Shown one piece after another: positions 32,627-39,343 of a stretch of DNA of 64,000 bases. A program made the translations under genes and the position numbers. Within the stretch, counting starts at the first letter, position 1. The number at the start of each line of letters is the position of its first letter. Below the pieces are notes generated by a model. It searched no databases and was not told where the DNA came from. It saw only the letters and a list, made by a program, of their open reading frames with translations. The stretch is taken from assembly GCF_000315545.1 (NCBI RefSeq), contig NZ_JH992902.1:779280-843279 (forward strand). The letters run 5' to 3'. The stretch comes from Selenomonas sp. F0473 (GTDB lineage: Bacteria; Bacillota; Negativicutes; Selenomonadales; Selenomonadaceae).

Positions 32627-32663
32627 GGATACGATATGTGATATGGAAAGGCTTATCGTATCC
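32627..32663 (+). promoter_or_regulatory. Leader hairpin of the dCache chemoreceptor mRNA
   Basis: GGATACGATA (32627-32636) pairs perfectly with TATCGTATCC (32654-32663) across a 17-base loop. It ends 25 bases before the start codon, close to the ribosome site, and has no T tract, so it is not a simple terminator. Confidence 0.6.
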
Positions 32664-32688
32664 ATCGGGGTTAGAAAGGACGGATCCT

Positions 32689-34653
32689 ATGAATCTACGT
32701 GCAAAAATCATGACACTCGTCGGTGTCCCGCTCATCTGTATCTTCCTCATTATGTTGGGAACGATCTATTGGAAGGCATCGGAAAGCATCCAAGAAGTCG
32801 CCTCACAGGAAATGATCCAGATGGCAAACGTCTACGCGGCCAACATCAATACGGCGCTGCAGGCGAAATCGCGCACGCTCGAGACGATTACGCGTCTTTG
32901 GAGCACGAAGCCGACCTCCTACGAGGACATGACGCTCGGCGCAAAGGAATTTGCGACGCAGACCTCCGATTTCTTCGTCGGTTTCCCTGACAAACCGTTC
33001 ATCGACGGCGCTGGGTATGACATCCCAAGCGACTTTGACGCGACGTCGCGCGGCTGGTACAAGGAAGCGTTCGGCTCGACCAAGGTCTGCCAGTCCTCCG
33101 TCTATAAGGCGGCGAACGGCATGCCGGTCGTCAGCTTCAGTTCCGCGATCCGCGAAGGCAATACCGTCATCGGCGTCGCGGGCTGCGACCTGAACCTCGG
33201 GATTGTCGCGGATATGCTCTCCAAGGCAAAGATCTATGATACGGGCAAGGCCTTCCTCATCACCAAGGACGGCAATTTTATCTATCATGAGAAGTATAGC
33301 CTCGACGACAGCATTTCCTCCGTCAAAGAACCCGAGCTGCAGGAGCTGGCATCGACATTCCTTTCGGGCAAATCCTCTTTTACCGCAAGCGCCGATAACT
33401 TCTACGCTTCGACACCGGTCGGCGATTCGGGATGGTCGCTCGTGCTGTGCGTGCCGCAGTCCGAGGTTTTCGCCTCGTCGAAAGCCCTGCTCGGCATCAT
33501 GGTCGGCATCGCAATCGCCGCATTCGTCATACTTTCGGGCATTCTCTTCTACATCGCGCGGCTGATCTCCGTTCCGGTCGAGGATCTCGCCGGATTCGCC
33601 GCAACCGTCGCGCAGGGAGATCTGCGCAAAACGGCGCTGCCGGTCGAGCGCACCGACGAAATCGGCACGCTGCACAATTCCTTCTGCAACATGACGCATA
33701 ACCTGCGCAAACTCATCCGGCAGGTCAGCGAAATCGCGACGCACATTGCGGAATCGTCCGCGGATCTCTCGACGAATACCAAAGAGGCCGCGCAGGCCTC
33801 GGAGTATACGGCTAAATCCGTCGCGCAGGTTGCGGACTCTTCCCGCACGCAGAGCGAGACCATCTCCTCGGCGACGGGTCTTATGCAGGAAACCTCTTCC
33901 AGCATCTCGCAGGTCACCGACGTCATCAGCGAGATCGTCGACTCTGCGAAAGCCACGGAAGAAGCGACCCGCGAAGGTCAGACCATCCTGAGCGACACCA
34001 TCAATAAGATGAACAGTCTCAAAGACGGTACGGTCGCCGTAACCGACACGGTGAAAGAACTGCAAAACAGTGCACACGAGGTCTCGTCGATTGTCGAGAT
34101 GATCACGAACATCTCCGAGCAGACCAACCTCCTCGCGCTCAACGCGGCAATCGAGGCCGCCCGCGCAGGCGAGCACGGCAAAGGATTCTCCGTCGTCGCC
34201 GACGAGGTGCGTAAGCTCGCCGAGCAGTCGAAGGAAGCGACACAGAATATCTCCACGCTCCTCGGCAGCAACGCCGTGCAGATGGACAAAACCTTCCGCG
34301 CAATGGAAGAGCAGACCGTCAACGTGGAGGAAAGCGTCGAAGAAATCCACCGCTCGGGTGAAAAATTCGCAGCCATCTCCGAGCTCATCGAAGGGCTCTC
34401 CGGTCAGATCAACCACATCGCAGAGATTGCAAACTCCGTGCAGCAGACCAGCCACCGCGCCGTCAGCTCCATTGAGAATATCAAGAGCGGCTCGAACGAC
34501 GCGGATACCAAGATGCAGGAGGAAGTATCGAACATCTCCTCCGCGGCCGAGCAGCAGTCTGCGGCCATGTCGGAGATCGCCTCCGCGAGCCATACCCTTT
34601 CCGAACTCGGACAGGAACTCCAGCAGGCGACAAAGCTGTTCCGCTTATCCTAA
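32689..34653 (+). CDS. Methyl-accepting chemotaxis protein with periplasmic dCache domain
   Basis: A 654-residue chemoreceptor. TM1 is [23 protein letters not shown]. The periplasmic dCache_1 domain is shown by [35 protein letters not shown] and [42 protein letters not shown]2 is [28 protein letters not shown] follows, then the signalling domain with tip [40 protein letters not shown]. Such sensors usually bind amino acids or other small metabolites directly. The ATG at 32689 follows AAAGGA; the earlier in-frame start at 32638 lies inside the leader hairpin. It is transcribed alone, between two terminators. Confidence 0.94.
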
Positions 34654-34674
34654 GAACGACATCGCCCACATATA

Positions 34675-34713
34675 AAAACGGACCGATGGGAATATATCCC
34701 GTCGGTCCGTTTT
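34675..34713. terminator. Bidirectional terminator between the chemoreceptor gene and dedA
   Basis: AAAACGGACCGATGGG (34675-34690) pairs with CCCGTCGGTCCGTTTT (34698-34713), 7-base loop, T or A runs on both sides. Confidence 0.93.
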
Positions 34714-34728
34714 TATATTTTTATACCG

Positions 34729-35337
34729 TCACCGCAGCCCGCGCTTCTTCCTTCTCCGGCGCACATAGAGGACGGCGGCCGCTATGACGGCCCCCGAGAT
34801 AAAGATAAGGCTCGCTTCATGTCCGTACGACATGAGATCCCTCCAGTTCTCGCCGAGGAGCATGCCCGCGTAGAGAATGGCTGCCGTCCAGGGAAGCGCC
34901 CCCGCAATCGTGTAAAAGAAGAACCGGCTGCGGTTGACACGCGCAAAGCCCGCGGGCAGCGAGATGAACGTGCGGACGACGGGCAGCATCCGGCTGAAGA
35001 ACACGGCTTTCAGCCCGTAACGGTCAAACCAGCGCTGCGCGACGTCCACATGCGACCGCTTGATGAGGAAATATTTTCCGTATTTTTCCACGAACGGGCG
35101 CCCGCCGTATGCCCCGACCTCATAGGCGAAAATGGAGCCGAGGAGGCCGCCGACCATCCCCGCGGCAAGCGCGCCCTCGAACGACATATGCCCCGAAAAG
35201 ACGAGATAGCCCGCAAAGCCGAGGATCAGTTCGCTCGGGATGGGGATGCACGCATTCTCCGCCGCCATGAGGACGGCAACGGCCACATAGCCCCATGAGG
35301 CGATGAACGCTAGAAAAAGCTGATAGAAATAATCCAA
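34729..35337 (-). CDS. DedA-family membrane protein
   Basis: A 202-residue DedA/SNARE-associated (VTT) protein. Motifs: the ENACIPIPSELILGFAGYL re-entrant loop, EVGAYGGRPFVEKYGKYFLI, FFSRMLPVVRTFISLPAGFARV with the conserved arginines, and TIAGALPWTAAILYAGMLLG. Members act in undecaprenyl phosphate or phospholipid flipping and in membrane homeostasis. The C-terminus is very basic (RRRRKKRGLR). It uses a TTG start at 35335-35337, with GGGGAG 9 bases upstream. The tRNA terminator lies directly upstream. Confidence 0.93.
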   Translation of the reverse strand: MDYFYQLFLAFIASWGYVAVAVLMAAENACIPIPSELILGFAGYLVFSGHMSFEGALAAGMVGGLLGSIFAYEVGAYGGRPFVEKYGKYFLIKRSHVDVAQRWFDRYGLKAVFFSRMLPVVRTFISLPAGFARVNRSRFFFYTIAGALPWTAAILYAGMLLGENWRDLMSYGHEASLIFISGAVIAAAVLYVRRRRKKRGLR

Positions 35338-35355
35338 TGGAAACCGCTCCCCTAC

Positions 35356-35385
35356 AAAAAAAGCCCCGGTGCATATCTGTACCGG
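35356..35385 (-). terminator. Terminator of the tRNA operon
   Basis: On the minus strand CCGGT (35385-35381) and ACCGG (35370-35366) form a stem, followed by GGCTTTTTTT. It lies 18 bases after the tRNA-Phe CCA. Confidence 0.85.
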
Positions 35386-35403
35386 AGACCGTCTCGTTCA
35401 TGG

Positions 35404-35479
35404 TGGTGCCTCAGAGCGGAATCGAACCACTGACACGGGGATTTTCAGTCCCCTGCTCTACCAACTGAGCTACCGAGGC
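35404..35479 (-). tRNA. tRNA-Phe (GAA)
   Basis: A 76-base tRNA with an encoded CCA end. Acceptor stem GCCTCGG pairs with CTGAGGC; anticodon loop CTGAAAA gives anticodon GAA; T loop GGTTCGATTCC. It is the last of three tRNA genes on one transcript. Confidence 0.97.
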
Positions 35480-35491
35480 AAGAAGATAAAG

Positions 35492-35568
35492 TGGCGACCC
35501 GGATGGGACTTGAACCCACGACCTCCGCCGTGACAGGGCGGCATTCTAACCAACTAAACTACCGGGCC
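35492..35568 (-). tRNA. tRNA-Asp (GTC)
   Basis: A 77-base tRNA with an encoded CCA end. Acceptor GGCCCGG pairs with CCGGGTC (one G-U); anticodon loop CTGTCAC gives GTC; T loop GGGTTCAAGTCCC. Confidence 0.97.
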
Positions 35569-35573
35569 GGATT

Positions 35574-35648
35574 TGGTGACGCGTACGGGATTCGAACCCG
35601 TGAAGCCGCCGTGAAAGGGCGGTGTCTTAACCACTTGACCAACGCGCC
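35574..35648 (-). tRNA. tRNA-Glu (TTC)
   Basis: A 75-base tRNA with an encoded CCA end. Acceptor GGCGCGT pairs with ACGCGTC; anticodon loop CTTTCAC gives TTC; T loop GGGTTCGAATCCC. It is first of the tRNA cluster. Confidence 0.97.
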
Positions 35649-35664
35649 GCACATTGCTGCACGC

Positions 35665-35704
35665 AAACAAAAATGGCGTCCGCAGTGCACTCACGAACGC
35701 CATT
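35665..35704 (-). terminator. codY terminator whose left arm overlaps the tRNA -10
   Basis: On the minus strand AATGGCGTTCG (35704-35694) pairs with CGGACGCCATT (35682-35672), one mismatch, followed by TTTGTTTG. The left arm begins in the last bases of the tRNA -10 box, so only transcripts arriving from codY can form the hairpin. Confidence 0.85.
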
Positions 35705-35730
35705 ATATTGGATTTTCATGTAGTTGTCAA
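35702..35730 (-). promoter_or_regulatory. Consensus promoter of the tRNA cluster
   Basis: On the minus strand -35 TTGACA (35730-35725), a 17-base spacer, -10 TATAAT (35707-35702): a perfect sigma-70/sigma-A promoter, as expected for a strong stable-RNA operon. Confidence 0.93.
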
Positions 35731-35750
35731 TACCCTTTATGTAACGGGCA

Positions 35751-36587
35751 TCACAGATTGATGCCGCTGCCGAGGTTCGCCCACTGTACGTCGGCGGCAT
35801 ACTCCTCGAGTTCCGGGAGTTTTTCCATCAGATACGAATTGGTGACGCGCACAAACGTCCCCTTCATCCCCAGGGACTTGGACTCAATCACGCCCGCGGA
35901 TTCAAACTTGCGCAGCGCGTTGACGATGACCGAGCGCGTGATCTTTGCCTCGTCGGCAATGCGGGAGGCGATCAGCCGGCCCTCGAACTTTCCTTGGCTG
36001 GCGAGTTCCTGCAGGATGGCATGCGCCGCTTTGCGCTCCGAATAAGAGAGCGTCTCCACCGCGATGCGCACGGCTTCGCGCTGACGGGCCTCCACCTCGC
36101 TGCGCTGCGCCTCGTCGCGCAGCATCTCCATGCCGACGACCGTCGCTCCGTACTCGCAGAGCAGGAGATCCGGATCGCCGAACGCCTTCTTACCCGTCGC
36201 TACGACGAGCGTCCCCAAGCGGCGGCGCGGGCCAAAGATCGGCGTGATGGCGATATTCTGTCCGCTGAAGAGTTCCGCGATCTCCTTCCCATAGGAGGAG
36301 ACGTCTTGCGTTTCGACACGGAGATTGACAAGCGTTTCTTCGAGACGATTGAGCCAATCGACATACTTGCGCGGAAACCGCCCCTGCTCGATCACTTCGT
36401 TCACCATGAGATCCTCGTCGAAATTATCGAAGAGCGCGTACCCGCATATCGCGCCGCTCTCGTCGGTAATGTAGACGTTGGCCTCAAGGACGTTGCTCAG
36501 CACACGTGAAATCCCGTCGTACTCAACGCTTTCGGAACGCTGCAGGAGACGGTTGATTTGCCGCGTCTTTCCCAACAAAGACATCAT
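35751..36587 (-). CDS. codY: GTP-sensing global regulator CodY
   Basis: A 278-residue CodY. It has an N-terminal GAF domain (LLGKTRQINRLLQRSESVEYDGISRVLSNVLEANVYITDESGAICGYA, then the EELVNLR-like linker) that binds isoleucine, leucine and valine, and a C-terminal winged helix (ASRIADEAKITRSVIVNALRKFESAGVIESKSLGMKGTFVRV), nearly identical to the family consensus. With branched-chain amino acids and GTP it represses genes for amino acid synthesis and uptake in rich conditions; ilvBN and brnQ nearby are likely targets. Two adjacent ATG codons can start it, after GAGGGGG. Its terminator overlaps the tRNA promoter downstream. Confidence 0.97.
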   Translation of the reverse strand: MMSLLGKTRQINRLLQRSESVEYDGISRVLSNVLEANVYITDESGAICGYALFDNFDEDLMVNEVIEQGRFPRKYVDWLNRLEETLVNLRVETQDVSSYGKEIAELFSGQNIAITPIFGPRRRLGTLVVATGKKAFGDPDLLLCEYGATVVGMEMLRDEAQRSEVEARQREAVRIAVETLSYSERKAAHAILQELASQGKFEGRLIASRIADEAKITRSVIVNALRKFESAGVIESKSLGMKGTFVRVTNSYLMEKLPELEEYAADVQWANLGSGINL

Positions 36588-36673
36588 TTGAATCCCCCTC
36601 TTTCTCAGGCTGCATCCACAGCCCGCAACACCGGATTACCATAACCCCATACCTACTTTTTCCTCCTATATAT

Positions 36674-36701
36674 ATCATACTACTTTTTTTCTAAATTTCA
36701 A
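36674..36701 (-). promoter_or_regulatory. Probable promoter of codY
   Basis: On the minus strand -35 TTGAAA (36701-36696), a 16-base spacer, -10 TATGAT (36679-36674). An adjoining dyad CTTGAA/TTCAAG (36697-36713) overlaps the -35. Confidence 0.6.
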
Positions 36702-36988
36702 GAAAAACTTGAATGTTTTTCATCTTTGCCGCAATACGCAATAAGAAACACGACTCAGAAGATTCCAATTCGTATACACTCAGTTCAACTTAATTCAGAA
36801 CAAAAAGACGAAGCGGAGAAAACAAAAAATAGACCCGCATGATTTTATCATATATAATAGAAAATGCAACCGTCTTTGATAATTTTTTATAAAACCCAAA
36901 ACGAAAAAAATTTTTTCGATAATATTGCGCCACGAAAGTAAAATTTAACCGCATATTTTCGCGACGGGGAAAAATTTTTCACGGCGTA
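36702..36988. other. AT-rich non-coding region between codY and rpmB
   Basis: About 290 bases of strikingly AT-rich DNA in an otherwise GC-rich chromosome, with many A and T runs and a near-palindrome CGAAAAAAATTTTTTCG around 36903-36919. No gene, tRNA or RNA motif is recognised. It separates the divergent codY and rpmB promoters. Confidence 0.7.
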
Positions 36989-37017
36989 TTGCCTAACGGA
37001 ACGAATCATAGTATAAT
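36989..37017 (+). promoter_or_regulatory. Promoter of rpmB
   Basis: -35 TTGCCT (36989-36994), a 17-base spacer, -10 TATAAT (37012-37017). Confidence 0.8.
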
Positions 37018-37069
37018 GTCTTGGTATTGCGCACTGCTTGACGGAAGCGTGCGCCGAGGAGGTGTAACA

Positions 37070-37261
37070 ATGGCAAGTGTATGCGAGATTTGCGGCAAAG
37101 GGCCGATGAGCGGGAACAATGTGAGTCACTCCCACGTGAAGACGAAACGCAAATGGAAGCCGAATATCCAGCGTGTCCGCGCCCTTGTGAAGGGTGAGAT
37201 CAAGCACGTCAATGTGTGCACGCGCTGCCTGCGTTCAGGCAACGTCGACCGTGCCGTCTGA
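37070..37261 (+). CDS. rpmB: 50S ribosomal protein L28
   Basis: A 63-residue L28 of the zinc-binding type: CEICGKGPMSGNNVSHSHVKTKRKWKPNIQRVRA with a C-x2-C pair at the start and CTRCLRSGNV at the end forming the second pair. The ATG at 37070 follows GAGGAGG; an in-frame extension upstream crosses the promoter and is not real. Confidence 0.98.
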   Translation: MASVCEICGKGPMSGNNVSHSHVKTKRKWKPNIQRVRALVKGEIKHVNVCTRCLRSGNVDRAV

Positions 37262-37282
37262 GCATTCGGCGCATAGAGAAAG

Positions 37283-37308
37283 CCGTCCGGCACGCCGGGC
37301 GGTTTTTT
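37283..37308 (+). terminator. Terminator of rpmB
   Basis: CCGTCCGGC (37283-37291) pairs with GCCGGGCGG (37294-37302) through a tight loop and is followed by TTTTTT. Confidence 0.85.
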
Positions 37309-37350
37309 CTTTTCGAAGGGGATACCGACACAGAGAAAGAGAGCGTACGC

Positions 37351-37902
37351 ATGGGAACGACCAACGCCCGCGAGATCCGCGCCGCCAACGAGATATATGC
37401 CGCCGATTTCGGCGATAAGGGCCGCCTTCCCCACGATCCGGCGCGCGCCTTCGCCGTCGTCACCTGTATGGACTGCCGCCTGGATCCGGCGAAATTTGCG
37501 GGGCTTGCGGAAGGCGACGCGCATGTCATCCGCAATGCGGGCGGACGCGTCACGCGGGACGTGATCCGCTCGCTCCTCATCTCGCACAGAATGCTCGGCA
37601 CAACGGAGTGGTTCGTCATCCAGCATACGCGCTGCGGGATGCAGACGTTCACGAACGAGGAGGCGCAGGAGCTCTTTGCCGCCGATTCGGGCTCGCCCGA
37701 GGCGTACTATATGGACTTCATGCCCATCCGCGGCTCGCTCGCGGAGAATCTTATCCTTGACGTCCGCCGTCTGCGGAGCCATCCGCTTGTTCCCCCGACC
37801 GTAACGATCCACGGCTATATCTACGAGATCGAGACGGGTCGGCTCGTCATATCGAGGGAGGCCAACGAGATCGGCGCGGCGCTGCCCGGGGGCTCCGGAT
37901 GA
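37351..37902 (+). CDS. Beta-class carbonic anhydrase family protein
   Basis: A 183-residue protein matching the short, mycobacterial Rv1284-like clade. The zinc ligands are C39 (CMDCR), H92 and C95 (HTRCGM), with the D41-R43 dyad; the core is GDAHVIRNAGGRVTRDVIRSLLISHRMLGTTEWFVIQHT. It hydrates CO2 to bicarbonate. In the usual motifs (CMDAR, HTDCGM) two positions are changed here (A to C, D to R). These lie next to the metal site and could alter activity. The start at 37351 is weakly supported by AAAGAGAG. It is transcribed toward the PepSY membrane protein gene. Confidence 0.87.
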   Translation: MGTTNAREIRAANEIYAADFGDKGRLPHDPARAFAVVTCMDCRLDPAKFAGLAEGDAHVIRNAGGRVTRDVIRSLLISHRMLGTTEWFVIQHTRCGMQTFTNEEAQELFAADSGSPEAYYMDFMPIRGSLAENLILDVRRLRSHPLVPPTVTIHGYIYEIETGRLVISREANEIGAALPGGSG

Positions 37903-37985
37903 CGGGCGTCTATGGGCAGAGATATGCGGGCATATACTTTTTATGCGCCGAATCCGCTTGTCACGGGCATCTATTTCTGTTAGGC

Positions 37986-38016
37986 TTGACTCATCATCGT
38001 ATTTCTCTTTTACTAT
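37986..38016 (+). promoter_or_regulatory. Possible promoter of the PepSY membrane protein gene
   Basis: -35 TTGACT (37986-37991) and -10 TACTAT (38011-38016), spaced 19 bases. It lies just before the gene start. Confidence 0.5.
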
Positions 38017-38038
38017 ACCGGAGATGACCGCTTTGTCA

Positions 38039-39343
38039 ATGCGTATGTTCTATCAAATCCACCGTTGGGTGAGTCTCATCTGCGCGCTCTTCTTCCTCAT
38101 GCTGGCGCTGACGGGACTGCCGATGCTCTTTCGCGATCAGCTGCGCGCGTGGAACACGGTCAATCTGCCGCCGGCCGGAGCGCCGATGCCGCAGGCCGAG
38201 ATCTGGAAAGCCCTGCCCGACGGATACGCCGCGATCGAGGCGAACTTCCCGAACAAAGACGTCCTCGCCGTTACGCCGAACGCCGCGGACGGCACGCTCT
38301 ATTTCAGCGTGCAGACGCGCGGGACGAAAACGACGGAACGCACGCATATGCGCATGGGCGGCGAACAGATCATGTACGACGTGCGTACGGGCGGCGTCTT
38401 CAACCGTAAGGACCGTATCTATCGCTTTCAGGCTGTGGAAGATATGCTGCACTGGGCGCACCTCCTGCATACGCAGCTCGGGACGGCGGGCATGGCGGGC
38501 AAGCATTTTCTCGCGCTCATGTGCATCCTTGCGGTACTCTCGATCGTCACGGGGCTCTTCCTCTATGCCCCGATGATGAAGGGACTTGCCTTCGGAACGA
38601 TCCGCGGCAATACGCGGCGGCTCGTCTGGTCGGACCGGCATAAATTCGTCTCCGTCTTCGCTCTCGTTTGGGCCGTCGTACTCTGTCTGAGCGGCGTTAT
38701 GATCGCCGCCTACTCCGCGGGTGTCAAAAGTTACCACCGCGACGCGCATATGGCGGCGATGACGGCGCTGTCGGATCTCCCCGCGGCGGAAACGGCGCTG
38801 TCCCCCGCGGACGCCTTCCGCACTGTGAGCGAAGCGTTTCCGGACAAACTCATCATCTCAATGCAGATACCGCAGGGAACGAATAAGAACTATGCGTTCC
38901 ACGTTGCCGATCCGCCGATCAAGCCGACGAATTTCGTTCTCGACGAGATGGTGTTCCTGCCGAAGAGCGGCAGCGCCGCCCCTCTGCTCGTCCCCGCACC
39001 GGACTGGATGTACGCGACGCCGATCTTCCTCAATCTGCACATCCACAATCATGACTGGATCGTGCTCAAGATTGCCTGGGCCGCGCTCCTCCTCCTAACG
39101 ATCGCAATGATTGTGACCGGCTGCGTCCTTCTCTGGACGCGCCGCCATAACGCGACGTACCGAAATGTGCCCGCCGTCGTGCGCCGTATCGACGTATCGA
39201 TTTGGCGTGCGCCCGCGGCGATCGCCGTACTCTCCGTGATCGGACTCTTCGCCCCCATCGCGGGCGGTATGGGGAATGCGGTCGGTCTGGCCGCGCTGGG
39301 ACTTCCGATTGCGTATTTTTGTTATTTGTCGGCGCGCGGCTAA
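38039..39343 (+). CDS. PepSY-associated transmembrane protein
   Basis: A protein of about 434 residues of the PepSY_TM family: FYQIHRWVSLICALFFLMLALTGLPMLF (TM1 with the family's early histidine), HWAHLLHTQLGTAGMAGKHFLALMCILAVLSIVTGLFLY, RRLVWSDRHKFVSVFALVWAVVLCLSGVMIAAY, and a C-terminal pair of helices around HIHNHDWIVLKIAWAALLLLTIAMIVTG. Conserved histidines in the helices suggest heme binding; related proteins (FsrB/PiuB) reduce or handle ferric siderophores. There are no iron-uptake genes nearby to confirm it. Starts at 38024, 38039 and 38045 are all possible; 38039 is chosen because the promoter lies so close. Confidence 0.82.
   Translation: MRMFYQIHRWVSLICALFFLMLALTGLPMLFRDQLRAWNTVNLPPAGAPMPQAEIWKALPDGYAAIEANFPNKDVLAVTPNAADGTLYFSVQTRGTKTTERTHMRMGGEQIMYDVRTGGVFNRKDRIYRFQAVEDMLHWAHLLHTQLGTAGMAGKHFLALMCILAVLSIVTGLFLYAPMMKGLAFGTIRGNTRRLVWSDRHKFVSVFALVWAVVLCLSGVMIAAYSAGVKSYHRDAHMAAMTALSDLPAAETALSPADAFRTVSEAFPDKLIISMQIPQGTNKNYAFHVADPPIKPTNFVLDEMVFLPKSGSAAPLLVPAPDWMYATPIFLNLHIHNHDWIVLKIAWAALLLLTIAMIVTGCVLLWTRRHNATYRNVPAVVRRIDVSIWRAPAAIAVLSVIGLFAPIAGGMGNAVGLAALGLPIAYFCYLSARG

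Follow-up and report, generated by a model that had tools for sequence, protein, structure and literature searches.

At IS10 and IS50, the native transcript starts within an inverted repeat whose two arms are present together only in transcripts arriving from outside, and the fold-back hairpin hides the ribosome-binding site of the transposase mRNA. At the E. coli frd terminator / ampC attenuator, an upstream terminator lies near the next promoter and both transcripts contain the hairpin. At tufB-secE of Salmonella, an inter-operon overlap of terminator and promoter has been described (Brandis, Cao, Hughes 2019, as described in PMC7055797). That overlap is ascribed a part in the regulation of expression and in fitness, and the cluster is said to be conserved in many Enterobacteriaceae (PMC7055797). 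In C. jejuni, a Rho-independent terminator is reported upstream of type II-C CRISPR arrays (PMC12080349).

Here, a hairpin with a U-rich tail (35704-35664) between codY and a tRNA cluster was analysed. We propose, with a probability of about 0.7, that it is the intrinsic terminator of codY and that RNA from the tRNA promoter escapes it by lacking the left arm.

The codY-tRNA locus

The window is the whole stretch of 64,000 nucleotides that was analysed (C1:779280-843279 of a host genome of 2.07 Mb). Coordinates are window positions, and all features of codY, the promoter, the hairpin and the tRNAs are on the minus strand.

36587-35751 (-): codY, an ORF of 278 aa; the upstream transcription unit
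35730-35725 (-): tRNA promoter -35 (TTGACA), 20 nt past the codY stop; identical in 14/14 genus genomes
35707-35702 (-): -10 TATAAT of the tRNA promoter, after a 17-nt spacer; identical in 14/14 genus genomes
C 35695 or G 35694 (-): predicted start of the tRNA transcript, the seventh to eighth base past the -10, first base of GTGAG
35694-35649 (-): 5′ leader of the tRNA transcript, with a weaker alternative fold that uses the right arm and U tail of the hairpin
35648-35574 (-): tRNA-Glu (TTC)
35568-35492 (-): tRNA-Asp (GTC)
35479-35404 (-): tRNA-Phe (GAA)
35387-35356 (-): likely terminator of the tRNA operon, CTCCGGT...ACCGGGG followed by a T run; seen by eye and unlisted by the scan

The codY product passes NCBIfam NF003170.0 (299.8 bits, cut-off 255) and falls narrowly below the cut-off of TIGR02787.1 (265.2 against 267.2). 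Among the matches listed in a search for relatives of CodY, which possibly omits the source genome itself, the nearest named relative is Selenomonas artemidis DSM 19719 (96% identity), followed by other oral Selenomonas and Centipeda; on this basis the host is taken to be an oral Selenomonas. CodY is present in all 14 genomes of the genus comparison, the window species included, and the order codY-promoter-tRNA-Glu is the same in each of them.

The tRNA promoter agrees with the sigma-A (sigma-70 type) in its hexamers (12/12 matches), in a spacer within 16-18 nt and in its position upstream of an RNA. Ordinary transcription starts about 6-8 nt past the -10. At the predicted +1, GTGAG is found in 10 of the genus genomes, GTGAA in three and ATGAA in one. 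The promoter spacer (35708-35724) contains TGAAAATC on the minus strand, which we take to resemble half of a CodY box.

At the Rfam gathering threshold, only the tRNAs were detected in window 33000-38500. In S. artemidis a hairpin was listed by the scan at the place that corresponds to the terminator of the tRNA operon (L002 3686-3707). A separate hairpin, counted at 20 pairs, lies at 34671-34717 between two genes:

32638-34653 (+): chemotaxis-receptor-like gene
34729-35337 (-): DedA/UptA-like gene

As these genes converge on it, this hairpin may serve both.

A U-tailed hairpin overlaps the -10 of the tRNA promoter

A hairpin of 11 pairs, together with its U-rich tail, extends over 35704-35664 (-), and its first three bases are the end of the -10. 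Its parts are as follows.

35704-35694 (-): left arm AATGGCGTTCG, made up of the promoter discriminator and, before it, the final three bases of the -10
35693-35683 (-): loop TGAGTGCACTG
35682-35672 (-): right arm CGGACGCCATT, in alignment with the left arm of the +1 leader hairpin seen in relatives
35671-35664 (-): U-rich tail TTTGTTTG, continuing the UU of the right arm; d = 18.0 (a terminator score of the d'Aubenton Carafa type)

The terminator scan lists the hairpin at 35704-35672 (AATGGCGTTCG/CGGACGCCATT), with 13 pairs including G-U, followed by TTTGTTTG. As in an intrinsic (Rho-independent) terminator, a GC-rich hairpin is followed immediately by a U-rich tract, and at the sequence level terminator and promoter share bases. 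The listing by itself is weak evidence, since 4 kb gave 10 terminator-like sites by this simple scan where shuffled sequence gave 4.8 (sd 2.4). As RNA, the hairpin (33 nt) has a folding energy of -17.4 kcal/mol (z -4.2; 1/200 shuffles equally good), and the fold of a wider stretch of 71 nt gives z -2.25 (6/200). When the leader was shuffled while the -10 and the 7 nt behind it were kept constant, the observed score for stem plus U tail was reached by 20 of 20,000 sequences. The overlap of the codY hairpin with the tRNA promoter is real.

The genome holds 31 perfect-consensus promoters, against none for a reversed-pattern control. Thirty of the 31 were screened, and a U-tailed hairpin that overlaps the -10 was found only at the codY-tRNA promoter. 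Two further perfect promoters were noticed. One (L054 1430-1570 (-), G000:C1:613073-613142), by eye between divIC-like and S1-domain ORFs, is followed by its first transcribed bases, then a GC hairpin and TTTT; it is a weaker candidate for a similar overlap and was not caught by the screen for hairpins over the -10. The other (L044, about 1530) has a discriminator that starts GGCGTT, and its leader counterparts look similar in two congeners (G008, G012); the L044 leader had no match in Rfam.

Dependence of the hairpin on the start site

The effect of the RNA 5′ end on the hairpin was followed with the d score. The score is 17.2 to 20.1 for starts up to and including the first base past the -10 (20.1 at that base), 7.1 for the second base, -5.5 for the third and about -19 for the seventh and eighth. 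By this measure the hairpin is retained only if the RNA begins at or before 35700. By folding and by the d score, a native transcript that starts at the third base past the -10 or later would be unable to fold it. Because ordinary starts (35695/35694) fall where the score is negative, it is sound to expect that the tRNA RNA could not form the terminator, and selectivity by start site appears well founded in the sequence. Attenuation of the tRNA transcript itself was considered and rejected, since the score of the hairpin is negative from the third base onward. A literature search found no paper that joins Selenomonas, transcription start site, promoter and terminator.

The earlier note had described the promoter as a perfect consensus (TTGACA-17-TATAAT) and the left arm as beginning in the last three bases of its -10; both descriptions hold, the hairpin running from 35704 with its U tail after it. 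Its further claim, that RNA from the tRNA promoter lacks the left arm and cannot fold the terminator, is supported by the folding and the score series. It had also named a tRNA start upstream of 35704 as the observation that would refute the reading. Such a limit exists, but by the d score it should be placed at 35700.

Comparison within the genus

The overlapping U-tailed hairpin is found in two of the 14 genus genomes, those of the window species and S. artemidis. The counterpart in S. artemidis folds at -14.2 kcal/mol (z -3.8), and none of 20,000 leader shuffles with promoter and discriminator fixed reached its observed score. Its d score, from the same formula, is 4.8 against 18.0 in the window species, and the consensus terminator scanner did not list the overlapping hairpin at the S. 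artemidis locus.

Identity between the two species is 7/8 in the left-arm core, 8/11 in the loop, 10/11 in the right arm and 6/8 in the U tail, compared with 6/16 columns in the rest of the leader; the promoter spacer agrees at 14/17 and codY at 722/837 positions. The figure of 8/21 for the stretch before the -35 is too low, because the lengths differ by 2 nt and the alignment placed no gap. The stem difference is non-compensatory, a U-G pair in the window species being a C-A mismatch in S. artemidis. This pattern of identities supports selection on arm and tail, although the base for conservation is thin, consisting of two species in which the left arm would be kept as promoter anyway.

A discriminator rich in GC and a leader that evolves fast could also have become complementary by chance, without any function. 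Terminator-like sites are common in the vicinity, the overlap occurs at one of 30 promoters screened, and 12 of the 14 relatives are without it. Even so, the shuffles (20/20,000 in the window species, 0/20,000 in S. artemidis) and the retention of right arm and U tail against the low identity of the remaining leader make such an origin very improbable.

The pattern TATAATGGCGT-N8-24-ACGCCATTTT occurs in two of 189 family genomes, once each, namely in the window species and S. artemidis. This bears on a reading of the inverted repeat as a DNA operator, in which a repressor would regulate the tRNA promoter by binding half-sites over the -10 and +20. Dyad symmetry does overlap a strong promoter of stable RNA. 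A site present once in each of two genomes, a sense-strand U run that follows the GC arms as in a terminator, and the absence of the right half-site from 12 of the 14 congeners despite identical hexamers leave this reading scarcely tenable, and on the last ground it was rejected.

In the 12 other congeners a scan was run over the interval that opens 30 nt ahead of the codY stop and ends at tRNA-Glu. Ten of them have no U-tailed hairpin there, and the remaining two have U-tailed hairpins that score -27.5 and -41.6. In most of the genus, codY probably lacks a dedicated intrinsic terminator, and codY and the tRNAs may be transcribed together. Blocking of read-through is thus not essential in the genus, as 12 of the 14 congeners have no positive-scoring codY terminator. 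For the same reason 'conserved insulation' across the genus was rejected, and the arrangement proposed in the earlier note does not stand as a general insulating design. Conservation of the overlap in relatives, which that note had put forward as a check, goes as far as the sister species S. artemidis and fails in the 12.

The leader hairpin and the origin of the two arms

In 14 of 14 leaders the minimum-energy structure is a hairpin that begins near the predicted +1. In the 12 congeners (L003-L010, L016, L017, L021, L023) this is a stable GC hairpin at the predicted +1, of -27.4 to -36.6 kcal/mol and without a U tail; typically GUGAGUGUGCGGCGGA...UCCGCCGC...UUCAU, it covers most of the leader. 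The consensus fold of the 12 leaders has 19 pairs, two of them with changes on both sides; several pairs are changed on one side, and some are broken in up to three sequences. Protection of the 5′ end or processing is a candidate role for this hairpin. The corresponding +1 fold is -13.3 kcal/mol in the window species (z 0.13; 104/200 shuffles at least as stable) and -13.4 kcal/mol in S. artemidis (z -2.2).

The letters of the left arm, AATGGCGTTCG, are identical in S. felix and S. flueggei (L009, L010), where they have no complementary U-tailed arm; the left arm is therefore promoter and discriminator first. A gap-free alignment places the right arm, GCGGACGCCAT, against the left arm of the leader hairpin in the relatives, the closest being GCGGATGCCAT of S. 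noxia. By this alignment, terminator and leader hairpin appear as two registers of the same sequence.

The alignment of the right arm, the presence of a leader hairpin near +1 throughout (stable in 12 of 14), the 19-pair consensus with its two doubly changed pairs and the lack of a positive-scoring terminator between codY and tRNA-Glu in all 12 congeners would also fit another account. The hairpin would then be mainly a remodelled element of the tRNA 5′ leader, serving to protect or process the 5′ end of the pre-tRNA; the codY-tRNA co-transcript would be cut by RNase P, a course that the sequence also suggests in the 12 other species, and the U tail would be incidental. We consider this unlikely, since in the two species that carry the overlap a strong overlapping hairpin (z -4.2 and -3.8) stands against a weak +1 fold (z 0.13 and -2.2), and since the U tail is retained at 6/8 positions between them.

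If the hairpin is the terminator of codY, a link to the leader hairpin can still be imagined. GCGGACGCCAUUUUUGUUU might be a strand common to two structures, with the site of initiation deciding which of them forms: in codY RNA it would pair upstream with bases derived from the promoter and terminate, and in tRNA RNA it would pair downstream, in a +1 leader hairpin that also hides the U tail. The device would have arisen, or been lost, by a slip in the register of the leader hairpin that recruited the promoter as half of a terminator. We offer this tentatively, as a possible but rather doubtful extension, since the downstream fold does no better than shuffles in the window species.

A tree of codY groups the window species with S. 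artemidis (UFBoot 91) and likewise unites the other 12 (81), with several weak inner nodes among the latter (18-55). Because the pair is the sister group of the 12, the direction of change is not readable from the genus alone. At a locus of another genus (L088), the tRNA leader seems by eye to carry a hairpin just after +1, and what looks like a normal terminator lies directly before TTGACA. This reading of L088 gives slight preference to the leader hairpin as the earlier of the two states. The tRNA-Glu pattern had no match in 20 codY loci outside the genus (L011-L014, L028-L043), and ARAGORN found solely Ala, Pro or Arg tRNAs there, in four loci. Of the 189 family genomes 177 had a match, and the codY loci compared come from a minority of these. 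GTGAG was also seen upstream of tRNAs in four of eight other-genus loci (L087, L088, L097, L098). It stands just after the -10 in L088, and in L087 and L098 CTCAC immediately precedes the first tRNA, placed as though to pair with GTGAG.

Proposed mechanism

Polymerase coming from codY would copy both arms and the U tail and stop at about 35671-35664, 24-31 nt into the tRNA unit. Polymerase initiating from the tRNA promoter, at the predicted 35694 or 35695, would omit 10 or 9 of the 11 bases of the left arm and continue into tRNA-Glu. A second and less certain layer may be added in the tRNA RNA, where the freed right arm and U tail would pair downstream.

Any insulation is one-sided, because the terminator lies downstream of the promoter and codY polymerase still crosses the -35 and -10. 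Passing polymerases are described as occluding promoters only briefly, strong interference needing high flux or pausing (PMC6593788). The device would separate RNAs, not polymerase traffic. The earlier statement that it 'insulates two units' is thus too strong; from the geometry, RNA read-through alone would be blocked.

Comparison with known systems

As at IS10 and IS50, a start inside the repeat removes one arm; unlike there, the codY hairpin would terminate transcription. The sources checked, in the parts available, held no confirmation of the start-site-dependent hairpin of IS10/IS50. The frd/ampC arrangement is not known to be start-site selective, whereas the codY-tRNA hairpin would be absent from the native tRNA transcript.

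The resemblance to tufB-secE, as far as the available description of it goes, is that the terminator of the upstream unit overlaps the next promoter and the adjoining units share bases. The codY-tRNA case differs from that description in that one arm is promoter sequence and the overlap is lineage-specific. In E. coli K-12 the published tufB-secE geometry was not confirmed in the sequence: a hairpin with a T run, seen by eye and unlisted by the scan (L104 664-686), precedes the best secE promoter-like site by about 60 nt, the only promoter-like site that it overlaps being a weak one (9/12), and the sole terminator-like site listed by the scan (802-825) falls after the best secE site.

With the C. 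jejuni CRISPR arrays, the locus shares a terminator that shields a small, separately promoted RNA unit from upstream transcription. The fragment tested there extended 5 nt into the promoter-bearing repeat (PMC12080349). Unlike at codY-tRNA, the available text of that study makes no claim that the choice of start site removes one arm.

A promoter discriminator that doubles as half a terminator would give start-site-selective termination without a protein, in a compact and checkable example. Since a small clade has the device where its relatives have a leader hairpin, the evolution of a terminator from existing sequence becomes testable. Terminators that overlap promoters may be overlooked, or miscalled as attenuators. 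Overlap of terminator and promoter is already known in outline; what appears to be new here, within the literature searched, is a probable start-site-selective terminator with promoter bases as one of its arms.
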